A stretch of 64,000 nt of DNA, taken from NCBI GenBank assembly GCA_012517325.1, contig JAAYVF010000009.1:1-64000 (forward strand), read 5' to 3'. Positions 279-20,585 of the stretch are shown piece after piece. The position numbers were made by a program, and so were the translations under genes. Below the pieces are notes generated by a model. The model did not search any database. It was not told where the DNA came from and was given only the letters and a program-made list of their open reading frames with translations. Origin of the DNA: Myxococcales bacterium. GTDB lineage: Bacteria; Lernaellota; Lernaellaia; Lernaellales; Lernaellaceae. Each line of letters opens with the position of its first letter. Within the stretch, counting starts at the first letter, position 1.

Positions 279-1898
279 ATGAAGGCCAAGCGGGTTTCGC
301 TTCTTTTTCCCATCCTGCTCGGGATACTCGCTTTTTCTGCAACCAGCCGGGCGGCGACGGTCATTTACTACGATCGGCAAACCAACGGCATGGGCGTCAC
401 CCTGGCCAACATGATCTACAACCTGGCCGGGCATTTCGACACGGATTTGACCGAGCGCGACGTGGCCGGTTATCAAGCGGGCGATCTGTCGGCGTTCGAC
501 CGGGCGATCTACCTCGGCACCGTTTATCGGCCGTTGCCGCCGGCGTTTCTGGCCGCCGTGGCCCAGGGCGAGCGGCCGGTTTTCTGGATCGGCGGCAGCA
601 TCGATCAACTAACCGATTTGCCCGGCGTGGCCGATCAACTGGGTTTTCGCTACCGGGATTACACGCTGGGCGCCGGCTTCGACCGCATCCGATACAAGGA
701 TCGCTGGCTGATCCGCCGGCAGCTTTTCGATTTCTATCAACTGGAGTTCACGGACGACGCGGAAGTGTACGCGGTGGTGGCCGACGACGGCGTGCCGCCG
801 GCGACTTACCCGTATTTCCTGCGCGGCGCGAACGTCTGGTATTGGGCCGACATCCCGTTTTTCTCGCAACTGGCCGACGACCGCTATTTCGTCTTCGCCG
901 ACGCGCTGCACGAGTTTTTCGGTCCCGGCGTTCCGGTCCGGCGGACCGCGCTGCTGCGCCTGGAGGACCTGGCGCCCGGAGCGACGCACTGCGACGAGTT
1001 GTACTCGCTGATCGAATCCCTCGCCGCCGAGGGGATTCCATTCGCGTTCGATCTGACGCCCTTTTTCGTGGACCCGATCGGTGTGTTGTATCCGCCGGGC
1101 ACCGTGAAGCGCTTTCCGGACGATCCGGAGTTGGTCGATCTGGTCAACGCCATGCTGAAGAACGGCGGCACGATGGTCATGCACGGCGTTACGCACCAGC
1201 ACGACAACGGCGTGTCGTTGAACGATTGGGAATTCGTGCAGGGCGCCGGCAACGAGCCGTTGCCCGGCGATTCGGCGGCGTGGGCGCGGGGGCGGGTCGA
1301 AAGCGGGCTGGCCGAGTTCGCCGCACAGGGTTGGCGGCCGCTGATCTGGGAAACGCCGCATTACGGCGCCTCGCACGGCGATTACCGCGTTTTCGCCGAA
1401 TACTTCGCCTGGGATTTCGAGCAGCCGCTGATCTTTCCGCTGTCGGTCGATGCGCCCGCGAGTTTCGGCGTCGCCTACTCGCCGCCGAGCCAGGTGTTTC
1501 CCTACGTTTCCCCGGTCGGTTCCAACGGCATGGGCTTCATTCCCGAGAATCTGGGCTACATCAATCCGGCCGTGCCGGGCCAGCGCCCCGCCGACCTGCT
1601 GGAAAGAGCGCGCCGGCTGACGATCGTGCGCGACGCCACGGCGTGCTTTTACGCGCACAACGGCCTGGTGAATCCGGACGACGTCTGGGAGGTCATCGAC
1701 GGGCTGCGCGAGCAGGGCTACGAATTTGTGAGCATCGCGGAATTGATCGGCGACGATGACGACGACGACAATAACGACAATGACAACGACGATAACGACA
1801 ATAACGACAACGACAATGATGACAACGATGATGTCAGCCCGACGCCGGCGCCCGGTGACGATGACGACGACGGCGGCGGTTCGGGCGGGTGCTTTTAA
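279..1898 (+). CDS. Secreted DUF2334 polysaccharide-deacetylase-like protein with D/N-rich C-terminal tail
   Basis: 539 residues. A Sec signal peptide (about 1-25, ending SRA-AT) precedes a DUF2334-type domain of the polysaccharide deacetylase superfamily. Visible family marks are the strand ALLRLEDLAPG (about residue 225) and the metal-site-like MVMHGVTHQHDN (about 303), giving an H-x3-H arrangement, plus WETPHYGASHGDY near 365. From about residue 492 the protein becomes an almost pure Asp/Asn tract with a PTPAPG break and ends GGGSGGCF, so a cysteine sits one residue from the C-terminus. The start is supported by GGGGAG 6-7 bases upstream of the ATG. It probably acts on a carbohydrate outside the cytoplasm. 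The tail is discussed in the findings because other proteins here carry the same kind of tract. Confidence 0.75.
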   Translation: MKAKRVSLLFPILLGILAFSATSRAATVIYYDRQTNGMGVTLANMIYNLAGHFDTDLTERDVAGYQAGDLSAFDRAIYLGTVYRPLPPAFLAAVAQGERPVFWIGGSIDQLTDLPGVADQLGFRYRDYTLGAGFDRIRYKDRWLIRRQLFDFYQLEFTDDAEVYAVVADDGVPPATYPYFLRGANVWYWADIPFFSQLADDRYFVFADALHEFFGPGVPVRRTALLRLEDLAPGATHCDELYSLIESLAAEGIPFAFDLTPFFVDPIGVLYPPGTVKRFPDDPELVDLVNAMLKNGGTMVMHGVTHQHDNGVSLNDWEFVQGAGNEPLPGDSAAWARGRVESGLAEFAAQGWRPLIWETPHYGASHGDYRVFAEYFAWDFEQPLIFPLSVDAPASFGVAYSPPSQVFPYVSPVGSNGMGFIPENLGYINPAVPGQRPADLLERARRLTIVRDATACFYAHNGLVNPDDVWEVIDGLREQGYEFVSIAELIGDDDDDDNNDNDNDDNDNNDNDNDDNDDVSPTPAPGDDDDDGGGSGGCF

Positions 1899-1919: not shown

Positions 1920-5168
<3,249 letters not shown>

Positions 5169-5208
5169 GCTTTCGCTCCTTTCGGTCGCCGGCGCCGGGG
5201 CGGCGCGG

Positions 5209-6354
5209 TTACGACCGCTTCCGTTGGTGTTGCTTCATCAGATCGACGAAACGCCCGAACAGGTAGCGCGCGTCGTGCGGTCCCGGCGACGCTTCCGGGT
5301 GGTACTGCACGGCGAAAACCGGCAGCTTCCGGTGGGCCATGCCCTCCACGGTCCGGTCGTTCAGATTCAGGTGGGTGCAGGCCACGTGACCGCCCAGCGA
5401 ATCGATGTCCACCGCGAAACCGTGGTTCTGCGCCGTGATTTCCACCTTGCCGGTCGTCAGATCCATCACCGGCTGGTTGCCGCCGTGGTGGCCGTACTTG
5501 AGCTTGTAGGTGCGCCCGCCGAGCGCCAGGCAGAGAATCTGGTGACCGAGGCAAATGCCGAAAATCGGCTTTTTGCCCAGCAGGCCTTTCGCCGCCTCGA
5601 CGGCGTAAGTCACCGCCGCCGGGTCGCCCGGCCCGTTGGAGAGGAAAACGCCGTCGGGATGATAGGCCAGCACTTCCGCCGCCGTGGTGGTCGCGGGTAC
5701 AATTTCCACCCGGCAGCCGGCCGCGATCAGGTTGCGCAGGATGTTGCGCTTGATGCCGAAGTCGAAGGCGACGACGTGAAACGCGCCTTCCTGGGCCAGC
5801 GCGTTGGTGTAGCCGCGCCGCGGCGACCAGATGCTTTCGTTCCACTGATAAGGCCGCGCGCAGGTCACCTCGCGCACCAGGTCGCGCCCTTCCAGCGGCG
5901 GCGCCGCGGCGGCGATCGCGGCCAGCGCCTTGGGCTGCAGACGTTCGGTGGAGATGACGCCCATTTGCGCGCCCGCCTCGCGCAGGTGCCGGGTCAGCGC
6001 GCGCGTGTCGACTCCGGCGATGCCGACGATGTGGTGTTTCGCCAGGTACTCGTGCAGCGTCAGCTCGCTGCGCCAGTTGCTGGGATGCTCGGCGGCCTCG
6101 CGCACGACGAACCCCTGCAGATAGGGCCGGCCGGCCTCGACGTCCTCGGCGTTGACGCCGTAGTTGCCGATGAGCGGATAGGTCATCGTGACGATCTGGC
6201 CGGCGTAGGACGGGTCGGTGAGGATTTCCTGGTACCCCATCATCGAGGTATTGAAAACGACCTCGCCGATCGCTTCGCCGCGCGCGCCGACCGACCAGCC
6301 GGGAAAGGCCCGGCCGTCGGCCAGCACCAGCATTGCTTTTTGTTTTTCGTTCAT
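5209..6354 (-). CDS. carA: Carbamoyl-phosphate synthase small (glutaminase) subunit
   Basis: 381 residues, typical of CarA. It hydrolyses glutamine and channels ammonia to CarB. The N-terminal CPSase small-chain domain ([37 protein letters not shown]) is followed by a class I glutamine amidotransferase domain with nucleophile elbow [16 protein letters not shown] (Cys near residue 262) and catalytic His-x-Glu in [13 protein letters not shown]. The ATG lies 9 bases after the pyrG stop and its ribosome site (GGGGAA) is in that gap, so translation is likely coupled to pyrG. It is the second gene of a pyrimidine operon. Confidence 0.98.
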
Positions 6355-6363
6355 CCGGTTCCC

Positions 6364-8259
6364 CTAGCAGCCGCCGTTGGCGGACGGATTCTTACGCTGG
6401 AAAGCGGTGCGGATCAAGTCGCGGAACAGCGGCGCCGGCGCCTCGAGCTTGGAGGTCAGTTCGGGGTGGAACTGGCACCCCATAAAATACGGGTGGTCCG
6501 GCAGTTCCATGATCTGTTTGATGCGGCCGTCCTTGTTGTGGCCGGAGAACACCAGGCCGGCCGCCTCGAGCCGCGGCACGTATTCCGGATTGACCTCGAA
6601 GCGGTGGCGGAAACGTTCGCGGATCAGGGCCTTGCCGTCGTAGATCTGCTGGGCGCGGCTGCCGGGAACGACGATCACGTCGTGGCCGCCCAGGCGCATG
6701 GTGCCGCCCTTCTGGGTCACGTTGATCTGCTCGGGCAGGATGCAGACCACCGGGTGCTCGACCGTGTAGCCCTCGGCGGCGGCCTCCATGGTGTGGGCGC
6801 CATTCAGGCCGAGCATGTGGCGCGAGTATTCGACCACGGCGAGTTGCATCCCGTAGCAGATGCCGAGGAACGGAATGCCGTTTTCGCGGCAGCACTGGAT
6901 GACCTTGATCTTGCCCTCGATGCCGCGCGTGCCGAAGCCGCCGGGCACGATCACCGCGTCGATGCCCTGCAGCAGCGGCAACGGGTCGGCGCCGGAGCGC
7001 TCCAGCTCGGAGGTTTCCAGCCAGTCGATCCGCACCCGCCCGTCGATGTGCGCGCCGCTGTGGCGAATCGCCTCGATGATGCTGGCGTAGGAATCGTGCA
7101 GGTCGGTGTACTTGCCGCAGATCGCCACGCGCACCAGCGGGCCGTCGGCGCGGGTCAGCGCGCCGACCAGCGACCGCCATTGGGCCAGGTCGGGCGGCGA
7201 ATAGATTTTCAGTTTCTTGTGCAGGATTTCGGTCAGCCCTTCCTCCTCGAACCCCAGCGGAATGCGGTAGACCGTGTCGACGTCGACGCCGGAGATCACG
7301 GCGCGCTGGTCGATGTTGCAGAACAGGGCGATCTTCTTTTTGATCTTGTCGGTGAGGCGCCGCGGGCTGCGGCCGATGATCACGTCGGGTTGCAGGCCGC
7401 GCTCGTTGAGCAGCTTCACCGCCTGCTGCGTCGGCTTCGATTTCTGTTCCTCGATGCCCGCCGGAATGGGAACGTAGGTCAACAGGACGATCAGCGTGTT
7501 GTCCTCGCCGACTTCCTGGCGCAGTTGGCGCACCGCCTCGATGTACAGTTCGTTCTCCATGTCGCCGATGGTGCCGCCGATCTCGATCAGGCCGATGTCG
7601 GCCTTGGTGCGGCCGGGGATGTTGTAGAACCAATCCTTGATGCAGTCGGTGACGTGGGGAATGAGCTGCACGGTCTGCCCCAGGTAGTCGCCCCGGCGCT
7701 CGCGCTCCATGATCATCTTGTAGACCTTGCCCATCGTCAGATTCCATTCGAACTGGCAGGTGACGCCGAGGTAGCGCTCGTAGTGGCCGAAATCCATGTC
7801 CACTTCGCCGCCGTCGTCCAGAACGAAAACCTCGCCGTGCTCGATCGGGTTCATCGTGCCGGGGTCGGTGTTGAGGTAGCCGTCGCATTTGATCGGCACG
7901 ATTGACAGGCGCGAGGCCAGCAGTTTGCCGATCGAGGCCGCCGCGATGCCCTTGCCTAGGCCCGACAGCACGCCGCCGATAACGATGATGTATTTGGTGT
8001 TGCGCCGGCCGTATTCGACCGATTTGTCCCAATCGGCGTCATGGACGAGCATCCCGCGCTCGTGAACCTCGGGCGCTTTGCCGGTTTCTTCGGCCAGAAA
8101 TGCGTCTAAATCATCGGGATTGATGCGGTATTGGCCACGATTGCCGACCTTGATCGCCTTTAATTCATCGGATTTTACCCAGCGCCTGACAGTGCTGATT
8201 GAAATCTTCAGTCGTTCGGCCACGTCTTCAAGGCTCAGAAAATTACTGAGGTCTTTCAT
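6364..8259 (-). CDS. pyrG: CTP synthase with N-terminal excisionase-type helix-turn-helix domain
   Basis: 631 residues against about 545 for ordinary CTP synthase; the difference is an N-terminal extension. Residues about 5-55 (LSLEDVAERLKISISTVRRW, then KVGNRGQYRINPDDLDAFL) match the excisionase/MerR-like HTH_17 pattern. A linker (about 56-85) leads into the synthetase domain: P-loop IIVIGGVLSGLGKGIAAASI, then DPGTMNPIEHGEVFVLDDGG and ERRGDYLGQTVQLIPH. The C-terminal glutamine amidotransferase has GICYGMQLAVVEYSRHM (nucleophile Cys) and CQFHPELTSKLEAP. The enzyme amidates UTP to CTP. Both enzymatic halves look intact, but several normally invariant positions differ (GGVLSGLGKG for GGVVSSLGKG, KCDGYLNTDPG for KLDPYINVDPG). 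It heads the pyrG-carA-carB operon behind a good promoter and a direct repeat. DNA binding and autoregulation are inferred from the domain only. GGAG lies upstream of the ATG. Confidence 0.95.
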   Translation of the reverse strand: MKDLSNFLSLEDVAERLKISISTVRRWVKSDELKAIKVGNRGQYRINPDDLDAFLAEETGKAPEVHERGMLVHDADWDKSVEYGRRNTKYIIVIGGVLSGLGKGIAAASIGKLLASRLSIVPIKCDGYLNTDPGTMNPIEHGEVFVLDDGGEVDMDFGHYERYLGVTCQFEWNLTMGKVYKMIMERERRGDYLGQTVQLIPHVTDCIKDWFYNIPGRTKADIGLIEIGGTIGDMENELYIEAVRQLRQEVGEDNTLIVLLTYVPIPAGIEEQKSKPTQQAVKLLNERGLQPDVIIGRSPRRLTDKIKKKIALFCNIDQRAVISGVDVDTVYRIPLGFEEEGLTEILHKKLKIYSPPDLAQWRSLVGALTRADGPLVRVAICGKYTDLHDSYASIIEAIRHSGAHIDGRVRIDWLETSELERSGADPLPLLQGIDAVIVPGGFGTRGIEGKIKVIQCCRENGIPFLGICYGMQLAVVEYSRHMLGLNGAHTMEAAAEGYTVEHPVVCILPEQINVTQKGGTMRLGGHDVIVVPGSRAQQIYDGKALIRERFRHRFEVNPEYVPRLEAAGLVFSGHNKDGRIKQIMELPDHPYFMGCQFHPELTSKLEAPAPLFRDLIRTAFQRKNPSANGGC

Positions 8260-8273
8260 TGATAACTAGTCTC

Positions 8274-8288
8274 CAGTGATTGTCAGTG
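8274..8288 (-). promoter_or_regulatory. Direct repeat CACTG-N5-CACTG in the pyrG leader, candidate operator
   Basis: On the minus strand CACTG occurs twice with a 10-bp period (plus-strand CAGTG at 8274-8278 and 8284-8288), between the predicted pyrG promoter and the pyrG start. Excisionase-type HTH domains are known to bind direct repeats about one helical turn apart, and pyrG itself carries such a domain. The link between site and protein is inference. Confidence 0.35.
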
Positions 8289-8311
8289 GTGGTCATTTAG
8301 GCCGGGAGATA

Positions 8312-8340
8312 TGTATAACAGATTTCAACCGAATGGTCAA
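8312..8340 (-). promoter_or_regulatory. Sigma-70-type promoter of pyrG-carA-carB
   Basis: On the minus strand TTGACC (8335-8340) and TATACA (8312-8317) are separated by 17 bp. Transcription should begin near 8305, giving a leader of about 45 bases that contains the CACTG direct repeat. This places an independent promoter between murA and pyrG. Confidence 0.7.
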
Positions 8341-8415
8341 GAAAAGGCTGACAAAGCGCTGATTTTTTCTTGGTCGAATTGCTTAGTAGATTCTAACTAT
8401 TCGATATAAATAAAA

Positions 8416-9681
<1,266 letters not shown>

Positions 9682-10542
9682 CTAATTTTCCCTTCGCCGG
9701 GCGGTCAACACCCGTTCGGTTCCCGCCAGGTCGCGCCACGCGGCCATCGTCGTAAAGGCGCCGGATTCCCGCAACAGCGCCAGCACCGCCGGCGACTGCC
9801 CGGCACCGCATTCCAGCGCCAGCAACCCCCCGGGCCGCAGCCGTTCCGGCGCCGCGGCGATGAGCCGCCGAATCACCGCCAGACCGTCGTCGCCGCCGTC
9901 CAGGGCCGTCGCCGGTTCGTATTGCGCCACTTCCGGCATGGCGGCGCCGCATTCGGCGGTGGTCAGGTACGGCGGATTGCTGAGGACCGCGTCATACGGC
10001 TCCGGGTCCGCGGCGAACAAGTCGGCCTCGTAAAGCGTCACTCGATCCGCCACGCCGTGCCGCCGCAAATTTTCCGCCGCCACGCCGAGCGCCGCCGCCG
10101 AAATGTCGGTGGCCGTGAATCGCCAGAGCGGCCGTTGGGTCGCCAGGGCGATCGTCACGCAACCGCTGCCGACACCGATCTCGCACAGGCGTTGTGGCGC
10201 GTCGGCGGCGAGAGCTTCCAGGGTTTTGTCCACGAGCAATTCGGTTTCCGGCCGCGGCGTCAGCACGCGACCGTCCGACAGAAACGACAAGCTGTAGAAT
10301 TCTTTTGTTCCCAACAAATGCGCCAGGGGTTCGCGCCGGCCGCGCCGGGCCACCAGTTCGTGCAGGGTTTGCAATTCGGCGGCTTCGAGCGGCTGATCGT
10401 AACGCAGATAAAGGCCCAGGCGGTCGGTGCCCAGCACGTGGGCGAGCAGCAGTTCGGCGTCGAGGCGGGCGGTGGCGATGCCTTTGCCGGCGAAAAAATC
10501 CCGGCACCAATTCAGCAGGCTGAGGACCGTCCACCGTTCCAT
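9682..10542 (-). CDS. prmC: Peptide chain release factor N5-glutamine methyltransferase
   Basis: 286 residues. PrmC methylates the GGQ glutamine of release factors RF1 and RF2 with SAM. A helical N-terminal domain (about 1-85) is followed by TPRPETELLVDKTLEAL, the SAM-binding motif CEIGVGSGCVTIALA (about 120-134) and the substrate-binding NPPY motif in AVLSNPPYLTTAE (about 183-195). The usual partner prfA is absent here; the upstream neighbour is a tRNA gene 30 bases away. There is no strong ribosome site before the ATG, so the exact start is less certain than the identity. Confidence 0.94.
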   Translation of the reverse strand: MERWTVLSLLNWCRDFFAGKGIATARLDAELLLAHVLGTDRLGLYLRYDQPLEAAELQTLHELVARRGRREPLAHLLGTKEFYSLSFLSDGRVLTPRPETELLVDKTLEALAADAPQRLCEIGVGSGCVTIALATQRPLWRFTATDISAAALGVAAENLRRHGVADRVTLYEADLFAADPEPYDAVLSNPPYLTTAECGAAMPEVAQYEPATALDGGDDGLAVIRRLIAAAPERLRPGGLLALECGAGQSPAVLALLRESGAFTTMAAWRDLAGTERVLTARRREN

Positions 10543-10831: not shown

Positions 10832-12613
10832 TCAACATCCGCAAGAACCGCTGTCGTCGTCATCGTCGTCGTTGTCGTCGTCGCCGTTGTCGTCGTCGGC
10901 ATTGTCGTCGTCGGCCGCGTCGTCGTCGACCACGTCGTCGTCGGCCGCGTCATCGTCGCCCGCGCCGGTGACGGTGATCAGAACATCGTCGCTGGTCGCG
11001 TCCGTGCCGTCGCTGACGGTCAGGGTGAAGGTCAATTCGCCGACCGCGTCGGCCAGGAACGTCGGCTTCACCGCCGCGGCGTCGGAAAGCGTCGCGCCCG
11101 GCCCGCCGGTCAACGCCCAGTCGTAAGTGATCGGGTCGTCATCCGGGTCGTAGGAGCCGCTGCCGTCCAGGGTGACGGTCGTGCCGACCGGCACGGTCTG
11201 GTCGGGACCGGCGTCGGCCACGGGGGCCGAGTTGTTTTGGGTGTAACGATAGGTGCTCAGGTCAAACCCGGCTTGCCAGCCGAGTTTGTTGCTCTGCCAA
11301 TCGAAGGCGATGATCGGGTGCCCCCAGTCGATGACGGAGGAGTCGACCTGCCACGTTTCGCCGCGGTCGTCGGAGTAATACAACAGCGATTTGTAGGCGC
11401 CCAACATGGACTGGCCGGCGCCGCCCAGGAGACCGACCACGCCGCTGGGTTGGAAGGACATCGCGCCGATGGCGAAAGCGGCGATGCTGGGGATGTTCGG
11501 CAGCGGCACGCGCGAGGTGACGTCTTCCCAGGTGGTGCCGCCGTCGGCGGTCTTCCAGAGGCTGAACACGTTGGTCGTCATGATGTGCGGTTCGCCGAGC
11601 ACCCAAAGTTCGTCATCGTTCACTTGTTGAATGATGTAGAAGGTTTGCAGCGGTTCGCTGAGCACCAGTTCCCAGGTCATGCCGCCGTCGGTCGTGCGCC
11701 AGATGCGGCCGTTGGTGCCCTTCGCGGCGCCGGGATTTTCGTTGCGGGATTCCATCCGGTAGATGGGATCGTGCGCGAGGCGCGCTTGATGGGCCAGCTT
11801 GTTGTAAACCTCGCGCATGGTGTTGTAATCGGGCGCCGGCGCGCTGGTATCCCAGGAATCGACGCTCTTGTCCTCGGCCCAGGTGTCGTCGTCATCGTCG
11901 TCGCCTTCCATGTCGCCGGCGATGACGAAGCCGTATTCGGCCGTGGAGAAAGCCACGTCGTTGAAGTAGGTCTGGGTGTCGCCGGGGGCGTTGATCTTGT
12001 TCCAGTTCTTGCCGCCGTCCTGCGTCCGCGCGATGAAGTTCGGGCCGCCGACCACGTAGCCGACCGTTTCGTCGGCGTAGTCGACGTTATTGATTGTCGT
12101 CAGGAAGGTGGTCGGATTGACGACGCCCTGTTCCCAGGTCGCGCCGCCGTCGTCCGAGTATTGGATCATGGGGATCAGTTGCATCATGCAGACGAACATG
12201 CAGGCCGGGAAGGGTACGGTATCCAGGCATTCCTGGTTGACGCCGAAGCCGAACATCTGGACATTGTCGCCGCCTGAGGAAGCCACGGCCAGCATCATGT
12301 TCATGATCTGCCACATGTAGCATTCGTTGGGCATGCTGGAGAAATCCAGCCCGCTGATCGGCGTATAGTAGTAACCGCCGTCGTCGCTGCGCCAGCCGTT
12401 CTGCATGCCGAGCGATGAACTTTGATAAAGGCCGACGGTGTACAGGCGCGTTTCGTTGGCGGAGGCGATCCCCAGGTAACTGGCGTTGGAGAGTCCGGGC
12501 GGGAGTCCGGCCAATTCGGAGGCCAGTTCCCAAGTGCCGTATTCCGCCGCCGCGGTGGTCGCCAGGCCGCAAACCAGCAGCCCGAGAGTCGCCAACCAGA
12601 CGAGTTTCTTCAT
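10832..12613 (-). CDS. Secreted Asp-box (YCF48/BNR-like) propeller protein with PKD domain and Asp-rich Cys-ending tail
   Basis: 593 residues. A signal peptide (about 1-23, ending AAA-E) is followed by a beta-propeller with at least five Asp-box repeats (YSDDGGATWEQ, RTQDGGKNWNK, RTTDGGMTWEL, KTADGGTTWED, YSDDRGETWQV). A PKD-type Ig fold (about 465-550) follows, starting APVADAGPDQTVPVGTTVTL. The last 40 residues are Asp-rich with Ala, Val and Asn and end DDSGSCGC. A second short Asp run (GDDDDDDTWAED) interrupts the propeller near residue 236. It is secreted and presumably surface-associated or extracellular; no enzymatic residues were recognised. A GGGGGA ribosome site precedes the ATG. The Cys-containing terminus resembles that of the protein at 279-1898. 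Confidence 0.75.
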   Translation of the reverse strand: MKKLVWLATLGLLVCGLATTAAAEYGTWELASELAGLPPGLSNASYLGIASANETRLYTVGLYQSSSLGMQNGWRSDDGGYYYTPISGLDFSSMPNECYMWQIMNMMLAVASSGGDNVQMFGFGVNQECLDTVPFPACMFVCMMQLIPMIQYSDDGGATWEQGVVNPTTFLTTINNVDYADETVGYVVGGPNFIARTQDGGKNWNKINAPGDTQTYFNDVAFSTAEYGFVIAGDMEGDDDDDDTWAEDKSVDSWDTSAPAPDYNTMREVYNKLAHQARLAHDPIYRMESRNENPGAAKGTNGRIWRTTDGGMTWELVLSEPLQTFYIIQQVNDDELWVLGEPHIMTTNVFSLWKTADGGTTWEDVTSRVPLPNIPSIAAFAIGAMSFQPSGVVGLLGGAGQSMLGAYKSLLYYSDDRGETWQVDSSVIDWGHPIIAFDWQSNKLGWQAGFDLSTYRYTQNNSAPVADAGPDQTVPVGTTVTLDGSGSYDPDDDPITYDWALTGGPGATLSDAAAVKPTFLADAVGELTFTLTVSDGTDATSDDVLITVTGAGDDDAADDDVVDDDAADDDNADDDNGDDDNDDDDDDSGSCGC

Positions 12614-12895: not shown

Positions 12896-14869
12896 GTGTG
12901 TGGCATCGCAGGTCTATTCAACCTGCGTGGGCCTGTCGACGAAACGGATATCCTTGAAATTAAGCGGATGACTTCCGTTCTCCGGCATCGGGGTCCCGAT
13001 GACTGGGGATTGGCAATCGGTTCTCATTTCGTCCTCGGCAACACGCGGCTGATCATTACCGATCTGTCGGCAAACGGGCATATGCCTTTTGCTTCGGCGG
13101 ATCGGTCCGTCTGGATCACCTACAACGGATTTATTTCCAATTATCGCCAATTGATCGAGCCAAACGGGTTGGCTCGCGAGGCGCCGTTGCTTTCCCAAAC
13201 CGATACGGAAGTACTGGTGCGGATGTACCAACGGTTCGGCATCGAGTTCGTCCAAAAACTCACCGGTCAGTTCGCTTTTTGTCTGGTGGATCGGCGGGCG
13301 CAAAAGGCGTTCATTGTCCGGGATTTTTTCGGCATCCGCCCGCTCTTTTATCTCCGGCACGGCGAAAAACTTTATTTTTCCTCCGAGATCAAAGCGTTCC
13401 TCGAGTTGTCCTGTTTTTCCGATGAAATCGATCTCGAGGCAATCTATCATTATCTGTCGCTGGCCTATATTCCCGATACCATGACGCCGTTCAAGCAGGT
13501 CAAGGAACTGTACGGCGGTCGGTTGATCGAAATCGATCTGGCCAAAGGCGAATTCCGCGAAAACGAGTATTACCCGATCCGTTACGACCCCGATTATTCG
13601 CTGACCGAGGAAAGGGCGACGACGGAGCTGCGCGAAATCATGCGCGATAGTGTCAAGCGTAATTTGGTCGCCGATGTGCCGGTCGGCCTGACGCTTTCCG
13701 GAGGAATCGATTCAAGTTCCATGCTGGCGCTGGCTCGCGATCTCGGCCAGTCCCGGCAGATCCACACCTACAGCATCGGCATGGCGGAAAAAAGTTTCGA
13801 CGAAACGCGCTATCAGAACATCATGGTCGATTTCGCCAGGCCCATTCACCATTACGTTCGCGTCGGGCCGCAAGAGGTCGCCGACAATCTGGTCCGGCAG
13901 TTGGCCTACATGGACGAGCCGACCGGGGACGGGGCCGCGGTGCCTTCGTTCTTGTTGGCGGAAGCCGCGCGGCGCGACGGTATCGCGGTCATGCTTTCCG
14001 GCGAGGGCGGCGACGAGACGTTCAACGCCTACGAGACTCATGTCGCCTTCAAGGCCAGGAAACTTTACCGCGCCTGGGTTCCCTCGCCGTTGCGGCGATT
14101 GATTCGGTCGGCGGTTTCCCGGCTGCCGGTGCGTCTGGAAAAGCTGACTTTCGATTTTGTCGCCCGGCGATTTGCCGAGGGCGCCGAATTGGACACCGCC
14201 GCGGCGCACTATTATTGGCGGCATGCGCTGAACGGCGAGGAAAAACGGCGGTTGATGCCGTCGTTTGCGCCGGCGAAACCGACGGAACGGTTTTTCACCG
14301 ATCTGTTCGCGGCGTCCGATTTCAACGAGGACTTGAACAAAATTTCGCTGATCGACCTGAAGTACTATTTCATCGGCGATTTGATGGTCAAAAACGACCG
14401 GACCTTTATGGCCCATTCCATCAGCGGACGATTCCCCTGGATGGATCGATTGCTGCTGGAATACGTCGCGCGGATTCCGCCGAATCTGCGAATCAAGGGC
14501 CTGCGCCGCCGCTATCTCGAAAAACAAGCGATGAAACCGTTGCTGCCGCGCGAGATCTATCGGCGGAAAAACATGGGTTTGGAAATGCCGCATGCCCTGT
14601 GGTTTTTTCACGGGCTGAAACCGCTGGTGAACGAATATTTGACGCCGGCGGCGATCCGGCGATCGGGCGTCTTCGATCCGCGCGCCGTTGAGGAACTGCT
14701 GACCGATCATTTTCAGCAACGCAAGGATCAAGGGCGCTCCCTGTGGTGCGTTTTGAACTTTTTGATTTGGCACGATTTGTTCGTTCACCGGAAGAATTAC
14801 AAGGACTATTTGCAGGCGTGGGGAGGAGAACCGCGAATCGATTTCGTTGAAGAGCCGAATTTCAATTAG
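12896..14869 (+). CDS. asnB: Asparagine synthase (glutamine-hydrolysing), AsnB family
   Basis: 657 residues. The start is GTG, supported by GGGAGG about 10 bases upstream and because it leaves the obligatory Cys at position 2 (MCGIAGLFN). Residues 2-190 form the class II glutamine amidotransferase (RHRGPDDWG); the C-terminal synthetase domain has the PP-loop LSGGIDSSSMLALA near residue 267 and LSGEGGDETFNAYE near 365. The family makes asparagine from aspartate, ATP and glutamine. Long versions of this kind are also found in polysaccharide and exosortase loci, where they may amidate other substrates. Two unknown membrane-propeller genes follow on the same strand at a spacing of 36 bases, so a role in an envelope polymer is as plausible as amino-acid synthesis. 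Confidence 0.9.
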   Translation: MCGIAGLFNLRGPVDETDILEIKRMTSVLRHRGPDDWGLAIGSHFVLGNTRLIITDLSANGHMPFASADRSVWITYNGFISNYRQLIEPNGLAREAPLLSQTDTEVLVRMYQRFGIEFVQKLTGQFAFCLVDRRAQKAFIVRDFFGIRPLFYLRHGEKLYFSSEIKAFLELSCFSDEIDLEAIYHYLSLAYIPDTMTPFKQVKELYGGRLIEIDLAKGEFRENEYYPIRYDPDYSLTEERATTELREIMRDSVKRNLVADVPVGLTLSGGIDSSSMLALARDLGQSRQIHTYSIGMAEKSFDETRYQNIMVDFARPIHHYVRVGPQEVADNLVRQLAYMDEPTGDGAAVPSFLLAEAARRDGIAVMLSGEGGDETFNAYETHVAFKARKLYRAWVPSPLRRLIRSAVSRLPVRLEKLTFDFVARRFAEGAELDTAAAHYYWRHALNGEEKRRLMPSFAPAKPTERFFTDLFAASDFNEDLNKISLIDLKYYFIGDLMVKNDRTFMAHSISGRFPWMDRLLLEYVARIPPNLRIKGLRRRYLEKQAMKPLLPREIYRRKNMGLEMPHALWFFHGLKPLVNEYLTPAAIRRSGVFDPRAVEELLTDHFQQRKDQGRSLWCVLNFLIWHDLFVHRKNYKDYLQAWGGEPRIDFVEEPNFN

Positions 14870-14905
14870 CGAGAGGCGATGCGGCGAAGTTGCGGGGAGG
14901 CAGCG

Positions 14906-16498
14906 ATGTGGGAGGCAGGAAAACCGCTTTTCTACGATGATCTGATTGTACGCCGGAAGGACGGTCAAGAAATCGTTTTCATGCGTAAAATGCGGATCAT
15001 CCTTCCGCTTGCCTTGTCGGTTTATCTTTTTACTATTCCCAGTCGGTATTTGAGTCAATCACGGATATTAAGTAATTCGCTGTTGTTTACCATTGTTTTT
15101 TTATTGATATCATTGGGGATCGGATGTCTTGGTTATAAGAGGTGGAATAGCCGCAATTTTTCACGATATTTCATTTATTTATTTCTGGCTGCGTTGGCGG
15201 TGATAACCGCGTTCCGCCTGATGTTGGCCATTTTCACCACCCAGTCCATGTATTTCCCCATCTCGGCGCTGGTCACTATTCTGATGCTCGCCGGTCATTA
15301 TTGCCGAAACAAAACACTTTATTTTCTGGTTCTCGCCGTCTGGGTTATCTCAATGTGGTGTTTACAAATGTCTCGGATTGAAGCGAAAGAAATCCACGCC
15401 TTGATCGTCTATTTGGGATTGTTGGTGTGGTTGGCGACCGAATGGTTTGCCGGTGAGCAGAAAAAGCCGCCACTTTTTTTCAAAGGTGCGATGGCGTTTG
15501 TTCTGATTGCCTTGCCGATTCAGGAAGGCAAATACCTGCACATGTCGGACCGGGAACAAAAACGGATTTTCTCGCAGCCGGGGGTGGAGGCGATTTTTAT
15601 CGGTAATGATGACGAAAAGATTCCATTTTCGCGCATGGAAATGAAATGCGATCTGGCATCAGGAAATCAGATCGTTTCGCCACATGCTATTTCGAATAAC
15701 ATGTCGATCGTCGATCATGGGGCGGTCACCAACCTGGCGCTAGGAGGTGAATCACCGGATCAATCGACTTTCATTGGGCCGTTCTGGTTAACCACTTCCA
15801 AGGGAAATTTTTTATTGGTCGATGTGGAAAGAAAAGAAATCAAGCGCCGCGTCGCCGCTCCCTTGGGAGATGTTTATTATCTTAATTATAATCCGGAGTG
15901 GAACCTGTTGGTTGTTTCGCAGAGAAATAGAGAGATGTTCGGCACGCGGGAATGCCTGTTTTTCAACGCGGATGAACAGGGAAATATCCATCACATTAGC
16001 GATCGTTACGTAAAGGGGGAACAATGCATCGCCATTGATAAAAAAACAATTCTCATCAGCCGATACAACCAGAAGGACATTATTGCCTTGTATGATCTGG
16101 AAACGAACACTATCTTGAAGAAAATGCCTCGGTTGCCCATCAAGGAATATTATATTCCATTTCACCAATTCGCGGTCGATTACCGGCACCGGGTTTTCTA
16201 TGCGGCGATTATGTATCCGGGAGTCATCGTGGTCAGAAATATGGATACCCTGGAATATATTTCGCAGTTTAAAACCAATCCGGGAGTGCGAAATGTCTTG
16301 GTGGATAATAAAGATCCGCGCCATATATATTCTTGGAATTATGCCACGGGTGAAGTGATCGAACATCGAATTCCCGGTGGGGAAAAAGTGCGTTCCTGGA
16401 CGCTTGGTCCATTGTTGCGCACCTTGAACTGGGACTGCAATGATAAGGATTTGTTGGCGACAACCGTTTTAGGTGGTTTTCGTATTCACTTGGACTGA
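14906..16498 (+). CDS. Membrane protein with C-terminal beta-propeller-like domain, copy 1
   Basis: 530 residues from the ATG at 14906, chosen because GGGGAGG sits 5 bases upstream; an in-frame ATG at 14879 is weaker. After about 30 polar residues come six or so hydrophobic helices (roughly 30-220: IILPLALSVYLF, LLFTIVFLLISLGIG, YFIYLFLAALAVITAF, ALVTILMLAGHY, LYFLVLAVWVISMW, ALIVYLGLLVWLAT, GAMAFVLIALPI). A 300-residue C-terminal region of short beta repeats (LVVSQRNRE, ALYDLETNTILKK, VVRNMDTLEYISQF) has the look of a WD40/NHL-like propeller. No family was recognised. It follows asnB by 36 bases and is followed by a close paralogue, so the three form a probable operon. Codon use is less GC-rich than in the core genes. 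Confidence 0.7.
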   Translation: MWEAGKPLFYDDLIVRRKDGQEIVFMRKMRIILPLALSVYLFTIPSRYLSQSRILSNSLLFTIVFLLISLGIGCLGYKRWNSRNFSRYFIYLFLAALAVITAFRLMLAIFTTQSMYFPISALVTILMLAGHYCRNKTLYFLVLAVWVISMWCLQMSRIEAKEIHALIVYLGLLVWLATEWFAGEQKKPPLFFKGAMAFVLIALPIQEGKYLHMSDREQKRIFSQPGVEAIFIGNDDEKIPFSRMEMKCDLASGNQIVSPHAISNNMSIVDHGAVTNLALGGESPDQSTFIGPFWLTTSKGNFLLVDVERKEIKRRVAAPLGDVYYLNYNPEWNLLVVSQRNREMFGTRECLFFNADEQGNIHHISDRYVKGEQCIAIDKKTILISRYNQKDIIALYDLETNTILKKMPRLPIKEYYIPFHQFAVDYRHRVFYAAIMYPGVIVVRNMDTLEYISQFKTNPGVRNVLVDNKDPRHIYSWNYATGEVIEHRIPGGEKVRSWTLGPLLRTLNWDCNDKDLLATTVLGGFRIHLD

Positions 16499-16576
16499 AT
16501 AAATCGCCATAAAAATATTTTCAATCGGCTTGCGACTTCGTCTTGGAAGTCCTTGTTCACCTGGGAGATAAACCCG

Positions 16577-18220
16577 ATGCAACCCGTTGAATTTATGCGA
16601 GAGACTACGGTGAAGAAGTTAGGGGAACCACCTTTCGGCACAATGGTTGCCGCCGGCCAAGAGGCCGGTCAGGAAATCGCTTTCATGCGGAAAATGCGGA
16701 TCGTATTTCCGCTTGCCCTTTCGGTTTATCTTTTTATTTCTCCATCCCGCTTTTGGAACCATGACTGGTTCCTTAAATATCCGCCGTTGTTGGAGATTGG
16801 TATTTTGTTGATATCAATGGGAGTCGGTTACCTCGGTTATAAAAGATGGACCAGCCATAATATATCCCGGTATTTCGTTCCTTTGTTGCTTGCCGCAATG
16901 GTGGGGGTGACCGCCCCAAGTCTGGCCAATGCTATTTTTACCACTCATTCCTGGTATTTTCCAGCTGCGGCCATGGTCTCCCTCCTGATGCTTGCCGGTC
17001 ATTATTCCAAGAAAAATATCCTTTCGTGCCTCCTGTTGGCGACATGGGTAGTCACGATGTGGTGCCTGCAAATGCCCAGGGCCGACAACAAAGAAATAAC
17101 CGTTTTCATTGCATATTTTTGTTTGTTGGTGTGGTTGGCGGTTACCTGGTATGCCGGTGGACCAAAGAAACCGCCGCTGTTTTTCAAGGGAGCGATGGTT
17201 TTTTTGCTGATTGCCTTGCCGATCCAAGAAGGCAAATACCTGAATTTGACCATCGAGGAACAGGAGAGGATATTTTCACAGTTTGGCGTCGAAGCGATAT
17301 TCGTGGGAAATTACAACAAAAGGATCCCGCGCTCGCGGATGGAAATGCGGTGCAACAAAGCGACGGGGAATACAATCGTCACTCCACATGCGATTTCGCA
17401 AAGCGCCGCAATCATCGACGACGGGATCGTCACCAAACTGAATCTCGACGATGAATCACCGGATAAATCGATCTCCATCGGTCCGCTTTGGGTGACCTGT
17501 TCTAAAGGTAAATTTTTGCTGGTCAATCTCGATACAAAGCAAATTGTCGGATATCGCGACGCACCCTTGGGCGATGTCTATTATCTCAATTATTATCCCG
17601 ATTGGGAGCTGTTGATTGTTTCGCAGAGAAAAGAGGAATTATCTTCGCTGAGCGAATGTCTGTTTTTTAGGGCGAATCGCGAGGGAGACATCAGCCAAAT
17701 CAATCGGCGGGTATACGGCGAACAATGCGTCGCCGTCAGTCCGAAAATGGTGGTGGTCAATCAATACAACCACCGCCATGAAATCGCGCTTTATAACCTG
17801 GAAACAAACACGATCGTGAAAAAACAACCTCTTCTGCCGCTGAAGTTGTATTATTTATCGCCGTTCAATCAATTCGCGGTCGACGAGCAATTGCGAACCA
17901 TTTATCTGGCAAACATGATCGCCGGGATTATAACGGTGAGAAATCTGGACACGCTCGAGTACATTTCACAATTCAAAGCCAATCCGGGAGTGCGAAATGT
18001 TCTCGTGGACAAAAACGACCAGCGACACGTCTTTTCCTGGAATTACGCGACCGGCGAGGTGATCGAACACCGGCTACCCGGCGGTGAAAAAATCCGTTCC
18101 TGGACCCTCGGCCCGTTGCTGCGCACCTTGAATTGGGATTGCGATCAACAAAACCTGCTGGCGACCACCGCCGTCGGCGGCTTTCGCATTCATTTGAACG
18201 AAACCACCGCGCCGCAATAA
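16577..18220 (+). CDS. Membrane protein with C-terminal beta-propeller-like domain, copy 2
   Basis: 547 residues from the ATG at 16577 (GGGAG 9 bases upstream). It is a tandem paralogue of the preceding gene along its whole length. Shared stretches include FMRKMRI..PLALSVYLF, KKPPLFFKGAM, ALPIQEGKYL, GDVYYLNY, LDTLEYISQFKANPGVRNVL and SWTLGPLLRTLNWDC. The layout is the same: about seven membrane helices, then a propeller-like soluble domain, presumably extracytoplasmic. The C-terminal strands (YISQF, PGVRNVLVD, GEVIEHRLPGGEKIRSW) are the best conserved, which suggests the propeller is the functional part. Function unknown; the link to asnB is positional only. Confidence 0.7.
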   Translation: MQPVEFMRETTVKKLGEPPFGTMVAAGQEAGQEIAFMRKMRIVFPLALSVYLFISPSRFWNHDWFLKYPPLLEIGILLISMGVGYLGYKRWTSHNISRYFVPLLLAAMVGVTAPSLANAIFTTHSWYFPAAAMVSLLMLAGHYSKKNILSCLLLATWVVTMWCLQMPRADNKEITVFIAYFCLLVWLAVTWYAGGPKKPPLFFKGAMVFLLIALPIQEGKYLNLTIEEQERIFSQFGVEAIFVGNYNKRIPRSRMEMRCNKATGNTIVTPHAISQSAAIIDDGIVTKLNLDDESPDKSISIGPLWVTCSKGKFLLVNLDTKQIVGYRDAPLGDVYYLNYYPDWELLIVSQRKEELSSLSECLFFRANREGDISQINRRVYGEQCVAVSPKMVVVNQYNHRHEIALYNLETNTIVKKQPLLPLKLYYLSPFNQFAVDEQLRTIYLANMIAGIITVRNLDTLEYISQFKANPGVRNVLVDKNDQRHVFSWNYATGEVIEHRLPGGEKIRSWTLGPLLRTLNWDCDQQNLLATTAVGGFRIHLNETTAPQ

Positions 18221-19181: not shown

Positions 19182-20513
19182 TCACCCGATGAGGCCGATG
19201 ATGATTTCCGCGATGCGCAAGATGCTCAACAGCAATTGTTTCAAGCCGTCCGAACCCGGATCGGCGTAAAACGCGCCGAAGTCGATTTGCAGAAACGACC
19301 AATCCGGAATCAACGCCGGCAGGCCGAAAGCCTGCAACAACGGGTTGAGATAGGACAGGTGGAACGGATTGGGGTTGTCGGGATCGACGTCGTATTCGGT
19401 GTAATCCCAGAAACTGTCGCGCAGTTTGGTAGCGACGTACCGCAAGGCATAGACGATTTCCATCTGGTCCGCGTCGAGCGAGCCGTAGCCGTTGATGCGA
19501 TAAGGTTCGCCCGCGTCGTACTTCTGGTTGCCGTTCTGATCGTCATAGCCGAACACGTCGGTGGCCTGATCCTCGCCCGCCTCGCCCTCGACCGCCGGGA
19601 AAACCAGGCGGAACTGTTCCATCGCCTCGGCCAGGCGCAATCCCGCGTCCTGGATCTGCGGAATGTTTTCCGCCGGGAAGGTAAAGAAATCGGGATAGGC
19701 CGGGTCTTCGAACAGGTTGATCAGGATCGGGATCGCTTCCTTGAGCGCGTTGAGAATGTCGTCCCAATCCAGTTCGGCCAGCAGATAGGCCTGGGTGTAG
19801 TCGCAATCGAGCGAGACGGCGTCGACGTGCTCCAACAATCCCCACAGGATCAAGGTCGGCACGACCGCCGCGTGCAATTCCGCCTCGTCGAACTGACCGA
19901 AAATGTCGGCCAGGCGTTCGAAGTGGATGATGATCGGAATCGCGAGGTCTTCGTCCTGCTGGAAGACGTAGCCTTCCTCCAGGCAAATCTGGGCGTATTC
20001 GAGCTGTTCCTTGCCGCTCGCGTATTGCAGGCCGTCGAGCGCCTGGGCGAGGAAGTTGTCGAGCAGGTTGTCGGGATCGTCCTTGACCGGGCCGCCGTTG
20101 TCGATCACCGAGTAAACGTAATCGAGGATGATGCCGAACAGATCGAGGTTGTGCATCGCGTTGCCGATGACCAGGCCGTAATTCGCCTCCGGATGCAGGG
20201 GCAGGATGTCGAGCGCCTGGCGGAAGTACAGATCGGCGCGGTCGCCGTCGCCGCGATGCAGCCAGAGTTTGCCTTCGTCGACCAGCTCGTTGGGCGGCCA
20301 GGGCGTGGTGTCGTCGTCGTTGTCGTCATCGTCGTCGTCGTCATCGTCGTCGCCGTTGTCGTCGTCGAGGTTGTCGTCGTCGCCGTTGTCGTTGTCGTCA
20401 TCGACGGCGGCGTTGTCGTCGTCATCGTCGTCGCCGCAGTCGCAACCGGCCAGGGCGAACACCAGGCATAGCAAACACCACCAACCCCACGGCGACAAAC
20501 GTTTGGCCGACAT
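19182..20513 (-). CDS. Lipoprotein with Asp-rich linker and TPR-like helical domain
   Basis: 443 residues from the ATG at 20513, chosen because GGGAGG lies 5 bases upstream. The signal peptide ends in a lipobox (LVFALAGC) and the mature protein begins CDCG followed by about 40 residues of nearly pure Asp/Asn, then TTPWPPNEL. The folded part begins with a TPR-like segment (EGKLWLHRGDGDRADLYFRQALDILPLHPEANYG) and continues helical; residues around VFGYDDQNGNQKYDAGEPY could bind calcium, as in dockerin-like loops. No enzyme was recognised. The Asp at position +2 after the lipid cysteine would be an inner-membrane retention signal in E. coli; whether that applies here is unknown. Confidence 0.7.
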   Translation of the reverse strand: MSAKRLSPWGWWCLLCLVFALAGCDCGDDDDDDNAAVDDDNDNGDDDNLDDDNGDDDDDDDDDDNDDDTTPWPPNELVDEGKLWLHRGDGDRADLYFRQALDILPLHPEANYGLVIGNAMHNLDLFGIILDYVYSVIDNGGPVKDDPDNLLDNFLAQALDGLQYASGKEQLEYAQICLEEGYVFQQDEDLAIPIIIHFERLADIFGQFDEAELHAAVVPTLILWGLLEHVDAVSLDCDYTQAYLLAELDWDDILNALKEAIPILINLFEDPAYPDFFTFPAENIPQIQDAGLRLAEAMEQFRLVFPAVEGEAGEDQATDVFGYDDQNGNQKYDAGEPYRINGYGSLDADQMEIVYALRYVATKLRDSFWDYTEYDVDPDNPNPFHLSYLNPLLQAFGLPALIPDWSFLQIDFGAFYADPGSDGLKQLLLSILRIAEIIIGLIG

Positions 20514-20585
20514 GTGAACCTCCCGCCCGGATAGCAAATGTATCGGCCCGGATTATACATGAAAAACCGGGCCGGCAAATACGGA

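Follow-up and report, generated by a model that had tools for sequence, protein, structure and literature searches.

Several metabolic enzymes carry a DNA-binding head and control the genes of their own pathway, i.e., BirA, NadR, PutA and the archaeal RbkR (5TRD). To our knowledge, none of these enzyme-repressors is a CTP synthase, none has a head of the BldC/Xis type, and their enzymatic cores are unrelated to that of CTP synthase. In Gram-positive bacteria pyrG is controlled by reiterative transcription; elsewhere the control of CTP synthase relies on enzyme feedback or on filaments. PyrR attenuation is a pyrimidine-responsive control by an enzyme-like protein, which binds RNA. Classical MerR regulators have a palindromic operator, a coiled-coil dimer and an effector domain.

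BldC of Streptomyces is a free pleiotropic regulator of 68 residues with many targets. It binds 9-bp direct repeats head-to-tail, with about one helical turn per subunit; its Arg30 reads 5'-YpG-3', Trp31 kinks the DNA and Gly44 is placed where two subunits touch (PMC5859096). RdfS and Xis build comparable head-to-tail arrays on DNA (PMC11963761). As for the enzyme, the CTP synthase tetramer has a 2-2-2 symmetry, and the polymerisation of E. coli CtpS is promoted by CTP and disrupted by UTP/ATP (PMC4126345).

The locus described here is part of a window, i.e., the whole stretch of 64,000 nucleotides that was analysed (Table 1). The original prediction described a PyrG of 631 residues with an N-terminal excisionase-type HTH, complete synthetase and glutaminase domains, and the gene order pyrG-carA-carB. 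All these points hold. The coordinates then given for the frame, 6364-8259, are exact; the strand, which was left unstated, is minus. The frame starts with an ATG at 8259, stops at 6364-6366 and counts 631 codons with no internal stop. The head (residues 7-57) matches HTH_17 (Pfam PF12728) with E 2e-14 in the whole protein (54 bits vs. a curated cut-off of 27) and TIGR01764 «excise» of NCBIfam (45.6 bits vs. a curated cut-off of 28.8). CTP_synth_N (Pfam PF06418) is matched by residues 89-352 with E 2e-105, and the PyrG profile TIGR00337 of NCBIfam covers residues 87-617 with E 1.7e-210 (700 bits vs. a cut-off of 463). The catalytic residues are retained, i.e., K103 of the P-loop and the GATase triad C468, H598 and E600. 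Both carA and carB were matched by NCBIfam, and 9 bp separate pyrG from carA.

Table 1. Position of the fused pyrG gene, its domains, its neighbours and its upstream elements in the window.
Feature	Position	Strand	Evidence
pyrG, HTH-CTP synthase fusion gene	6364..8259	-	ORF, PF12728 + PF06418 + PF00117, TIGR00337
Excisionase/BldC-type winged HTH, N-terminal, residues 7-57	8089..8241	-	HTH_17, TIGR01764, AF2 model
Linker, residues 58-85 (disordered 58-67, then helix 77-87)	8005..8088	-	AF2 pLDDT, low identity
CTP synthase synthetase domain, residues 89-352	7204..7995	-	PF06418, invariant P-loop K103, PyrG fold
Glutaminase (class I GATase), residues 387-616, triad C468/H598/E600	6412..7101	-	PF00117, triad conserved
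carA, carbamoyl-phosphate synthase small subunit	5209..6354	-	TIGR01368 8e-152
carB, carbamoyl-phosphate synthase large subunit	1920..5168	-	NF003671
murA, upstream neighbour outside the proposed system	8416..9681	-	TIGR01072
Candidate operator AATGACCACCACTGACAATCACTG, 10-bp direct repeats, -38 to -15 from ATG	8274..8297	-	6/6 fused genes
Tentative promoter TTGACC-17-TATACA, upstream of the operator	8312..8340	-	read by eye

The whole protein was modelled with AF2 as a single chain (monomer). Head and enzyme are both ordered (pLDDT 87, pTM 0.82), and residues 58-67, with a pLDDT of about 40, form a disordered tether. No long coiled-coil helix directly follows the winged HTH in the AF2 secondary structure. 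The core superimposes on solved full-length CTP synthases with TM (by target) of 0.86-0.95. For residues 1-73, the nearest solved structures are the BldC-DNA complexes 6AMA and 6AMK (TM by target 0.79-0.87); Pukovnik Xis is also among the nearest structures (Foldseek). The Foldseek E-values are modest (2.6e-3), since the head has only 50 residues. The equivalents of Arg30, Trp31 and Gly44 of BldC are Arg26, Trp27 and Gly39, invariant in the six fused proteins, while the wing residue His46 of BldC is replaced by Arg41.

The HTH-PyrG fusion is present, always in one frame, in six genomes belonging to two distant lineages; these genomes are mostly or all MAG-quality data. Besides the window, five further genomes carry it: the two remaining genomes of the family of the window (G001, and G002 where the gene is cut at the contig end) and three MAGs labelled Acidobacteria (L034/G116, L035/G117 and L036/G118). 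The MAG fen_1099 (L041) contains the C-terminal part of pyrG followed by carAB, on a contig that starts inside the gene. Among 396 genomes drawn from the phylum of G116, only G116-G118 are fused; G436, G476 and other longer matches in this phylum correspond to upstream genes or stop-closed frames and were rejected as fusions. The HTH is absent from the PyrG matches in the phylum of G009 (16 of 17 genomes) and in three genomes of the phylum of G030. The DNA-binding head is absent from all the unfused PyrG relatives checked, and no fusion was found among the best three plasmid-record matches listed.

Compared in pairs, the six fused proteins are on average 80% identical in the head and 86% in the synthetase domain; the GATase domain reaches 75%, the linker only 40%. 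Synonymous differences among the fused genes are near saturation (pS about 0.6). An identity of 80% at such a distance indicates, from these alignments, that purifying selection maintains the head as part of the enzyme. Close to the core, W77 and the helix 77-87 are also conserved among the fused proteins. Because the one-frame fusion recurs in five other genomes and its HTH is under purifying selection, the HTH-CTP synthase is genuine, i.e., neither an assembly nor a start-codon artefact. GC3 is lower in the head-coding part (8005-8259 and its equivalents in the six genes) than in the remainder of the gene (0.61 vs. 0.91 in the window); possible causes are the origin of the head or a constraint at the DNA level.

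In the PyrG tree, the fused cores, six in all, group in a single clade with an SH-aLRT of 99, whose neighbours are unfused enzymes of UBP14, Fibrobacteres and DPANN type. The phylum-mates of the window in other families have an ordinary PyrG, distant from the fused clade. In the RpoB tree, G000-G002 group with their phylum-mates and G116/G118 are far away; a single clade of fused genomes is rejected by RpoB (AU p 6.5e-6). Set against the single PyrG clade, this value leads to the rejection of vertical inheritance within one phylum. Most simply, the two trees can be read as a single fusion event in a PyrG of an already unusual type, followed by horizontal transfer between phyla. Consequently, any tie between head and operator counts as one evolutionary event plus its maintenance in two lineages, and not as six independent events.

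The new observation is a 10-bp direct repeat located before all six fused genes and before none of 27 unfused ones. The repeat has the consensus AnTGACnAnC in 2.4 units, with TpG as a conserved, recurring step. The pattern ANTGACNANCANTGACNATCANTG starts at -38 in five of the six genes and at -39 in L036, with 0-3 mismatches. The register from the start codon is fixed: 14 of 26 columns are common to at least five of the six genes, while 20,000 trials with random registers gave 5 at most. No conserved column was found in windows starting at -62 or farther upstream of the six genes. The self-match of the element at lag 10 is 0.69, whereas the other lags between 4 and 15 do not exceed 0.33, and none of 5,000 shuffles reaches 0.69.

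The best match in the upstream regions of the 27 unfused pyrG genes has 6-9 mismatches to the element in every case. In the 64-kb window, the pyrG site is the sole match at up to 3 mismatches (0.01 expected). At the genome scale, four genomes have 0-2 mismatches at the pyrG site, and none of these four has a second match of that quality; in the six whole genomes, the pyrG site is the best match or is tied with a few others at 3 mismatches. The extra matches that were inspected lie mostly inside open reading frames or show no sign of an operator.

Other readings of this upstream region were rejected: (i) a palindromic MerR-type operator, the best dyad axis being 52% complementary; (ii) a coding sequence, since in the window a TAG stands in frame at -9; (iii) a control at the RNA level, no Rfam match that counts being found and the leaders folding no better than shuffles (z from -1.4 to 1.2); (iv) a wider regulon, the genome-wide search at up to 3 mismatches having returned only the pyrG site and a few weak matches, most of them within open reading frames.

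In the window, murA and pyrG are separated by 156 bp of AT-rich DNA (37% GC vs. 60% in the window). The upstream gene varies among the fused loci. It is murA in the window and an asparagine synthase-like gene in L034; in L050 an inserted element comes first and glnN lies behind it, and in L036 a divergent glnN is found. Since these genes differ, the element goes with the fused gene and not with a conserved neighbourhood. Purines resembling a ribosome site precede the ATG in most fused genes.

The promoter of Table 1 is tentative; a sigma-70 scan of the upstream region returned none at its stricter rule. If this promoter is used, the operator of the window would lie just downstream of the transcription start. 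In G002, L034 and L035, a TTGAC(A/C)/TA-rich pair, also read by eye and tentative, would put the -10 box in contact with the operator. The TTGACC of the tentative -35 box (8332-8341, minus strand; 4796-4805 in L034) resembles one operator unit (CTTGACCATT; ATTGACCATC), possibly as an extra upstream half-site or a promoter overlap.

In two fused genomes, carAB is not beside pyrG in the stretch examined. In L036, the order is glnN-like (599-2791), pyrG (3091-5001), amtB-like (5070-6560) and glutamate-synthase-like (7237-9885), and a glnN-like gene is also near the fused pyrG in L034 and L050. These nitrogen-assimilation neighbours (GSIII-type glutamine synthetase, ammonium transporter) were named by eye from the sequence. 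Their proximity in several genomes suggests that glutamine supply may be tied to CTP synthesis. Elsewhere in the window, predicted exported proteins at 279-1898 (+), 10832-12613 (-) and 19182-20537 (-) have long stretches of Asp/Asn beside short motifs with Cys (...GGGSGGCF and ...SGSCGC at the C-terminus; LAGCDCGDDDDDD, lipobox-like, at the N-terminus). This looks like a lineage-specific signal for surface anchoring or sorting. Two tandem paralogues at 14879-16498 and 16553-18220 (+) adjoin an asparagine-synthase-like gene at 12896-14869; judged by eye, both proteins are likely to have membrane segments, and their C-terminal half resembles a propeller.

The comparison with the known systems leads to the following points: (i) the fusion shares with BldC the closest solved fold, the equivalents of Arg30, Trp31 and Gly44, and a candidate target of direct repeats with TpG at about one helical turn per unit, but its head is borne by an enzyme, its repeat is 10 bp long instead of 9 and one target was found. 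By its sequence it lies outside the BldC family in the strict sense, as it is not stand-alone and differs at the wing residue; (ii) it shares the HTH_17 domain with the excisionases of phages and ICEs (Xis, RdfS; TIGR01764), whose arrays are cooperative and head-to-tail, but lacks a recombination context, the head being on a metabolic enzyme and the site being promoter-proximal; (iii) nor is it a classical MerR regulator, its element having no good dyad; (iv) the enzyme has the complete synthetase and glutaminase domains, catalytic residues and fold of canonical PyrG, and differs by a head that is found at no unfused locus read out; (v) like the enzyme-repressors, it is a metabolic enzyme with its own DNA-binding domain. 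The fusion thus belongs to the CTP synthase family, with a head of BldC/Xis type, and would work like an enzyme-repressor.

The preferred reading, to which we give a probability of about three in four, is that this CTP synthase doubles as a transcriptional autoregulator of its own gene, i.e., a «trigger enzyme» of the enzyme-repressor kind. In a PyrG oligomer, the heads on their flexible tethers would bind the 10-bp repeats head-to-tail a short way upstream of the start codon and would block the transcription of pyrG, as well as that of carAB in the window genome. Without a flexible tether, the symmetry of a D2 tetramer would count against such an arrangement, as the heads would not be presented head-to-tail; with the disordered tether, a 2-2-2 tetramer could lay neighbouring heads in one direction. 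As CTP promotes and UTP and ATP disrupt the polymers of CtpS, CTP is a natural guess for the corepressor: the CTP-inhibited tetramer or filament would be the likeliest signal, and the substrates UTP/ATP would relieve repression.

That the head would read DNA and control its own operon directly, as originally proposed, is well supported by these comparisons: a conserved repeat, present only before fused genes, was found within the suggested segment 8260-8340. The companion idea, that UTP/CTP would be sensed through the ligand or filament state, stays conjectural. The scope of that proposal, «the pyrimidine operon», was too broad given the separate PyrR, the two genomes without adjacent carAB and the sole site at pyrG. 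PyrR-like genes persist in all 11 genomes tested (with a weak match in G117), and a replacement of PyrR by the fusion was rejected. As the window genome encodes its PyrR homologue separately from the fusion, general pyrimidine control would be separate, and the fusion would be a dedicated CTP-level loop. Control thus looks dedicated to pyrG and the genes co-transcribed with it.

The head could also bind the operator with no nucleotide sensing, as a ligand-independent thermostat in which the amount of protein alone ensures negative autoregulation. This is a possible, though less likely, reading; it agrees with the single dedicated site before the enzyme's own gene and with a long, poorly conserved and disordered tether that decouples head from core. 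However, W77 and the helix by the core are conserved, and the oligomeric state of the enzyme is set by UTP/ATP/CTP (PMC4126345), so that some nucleotide effect is likely for a DNA-binding head placed on such an oligomer.

As the promoter is tentative, the choice of repression over activation is a guess from position. An activator, or an architectural factor of MerR/BldC kind, is unlikely: the operator is not set against a proven promoter, and BldC, a protein that bends DNA, acts as a repressor of whiI from an upstream position that is unusual (PMC5859096), but the tentative -10 boxes in contact with the operator in G002, L034 and L035, and the operator just downstream of the tentative start in the window, rather suit blocking.

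The pairing of head and operator is inferred from sequence, and another regulator could read the element. HTH domains sometimes mediate interactions other than with DNA, and that of PyrG could serve protein contact or localisation on DNA. This seems improbable, since element and head go together in two lineages that are distant and differ in their upstream genes, are jointly missing from unfused relatives, and the geometry of the element is that expected for this class of HTH. Finally, the fusion could be a relic with no function, in which an HTH gene is merely read through and the true start of translation lies further in, e.g., at M69. The lower GC3 (0.61 vs. 0.91) and the mobility of many winged HTH genes would fit this reading. 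It is very improbable, as the head is conserved at the level of the enzyme across a phylum-scale distance at which synonymous sites are saturated, most genes have ribosome-site-like purines before the ATG, and M69 is not conserved.

The view that no standard pyrimidine regulator has this design agrees with a literature search, in which subscription journals were thinly covered and no description of an HTH-CTP synthase was found. If the preferred reading is true, this would be, as far as found, the first CTP synthase that reads DNA, and a ligand-controlled polymerising enzyme would be linked directly to transcription. A bolder version, which we hold to be rather doubtful, is that the transcription factor is the oligomer or filament as such: the tetramer or filament inhibited by CTP would present an array of BldC-type heads, which would assemble cooperatively on the phased repeats, the polymerisation that shuts the enzyme off would also shut the operon off, and enzyme and operator would have crossed phyla as a self-contained cassette. 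The fused PyrG would be a concrete system for asking whether the filament state carries regulatory information, and would offer a ready operator and a mutable arginine. Enzyme and operator seem to have passed between phyla as one unit, and would illustrate how a housekeeping gene can bring its own regulation along.
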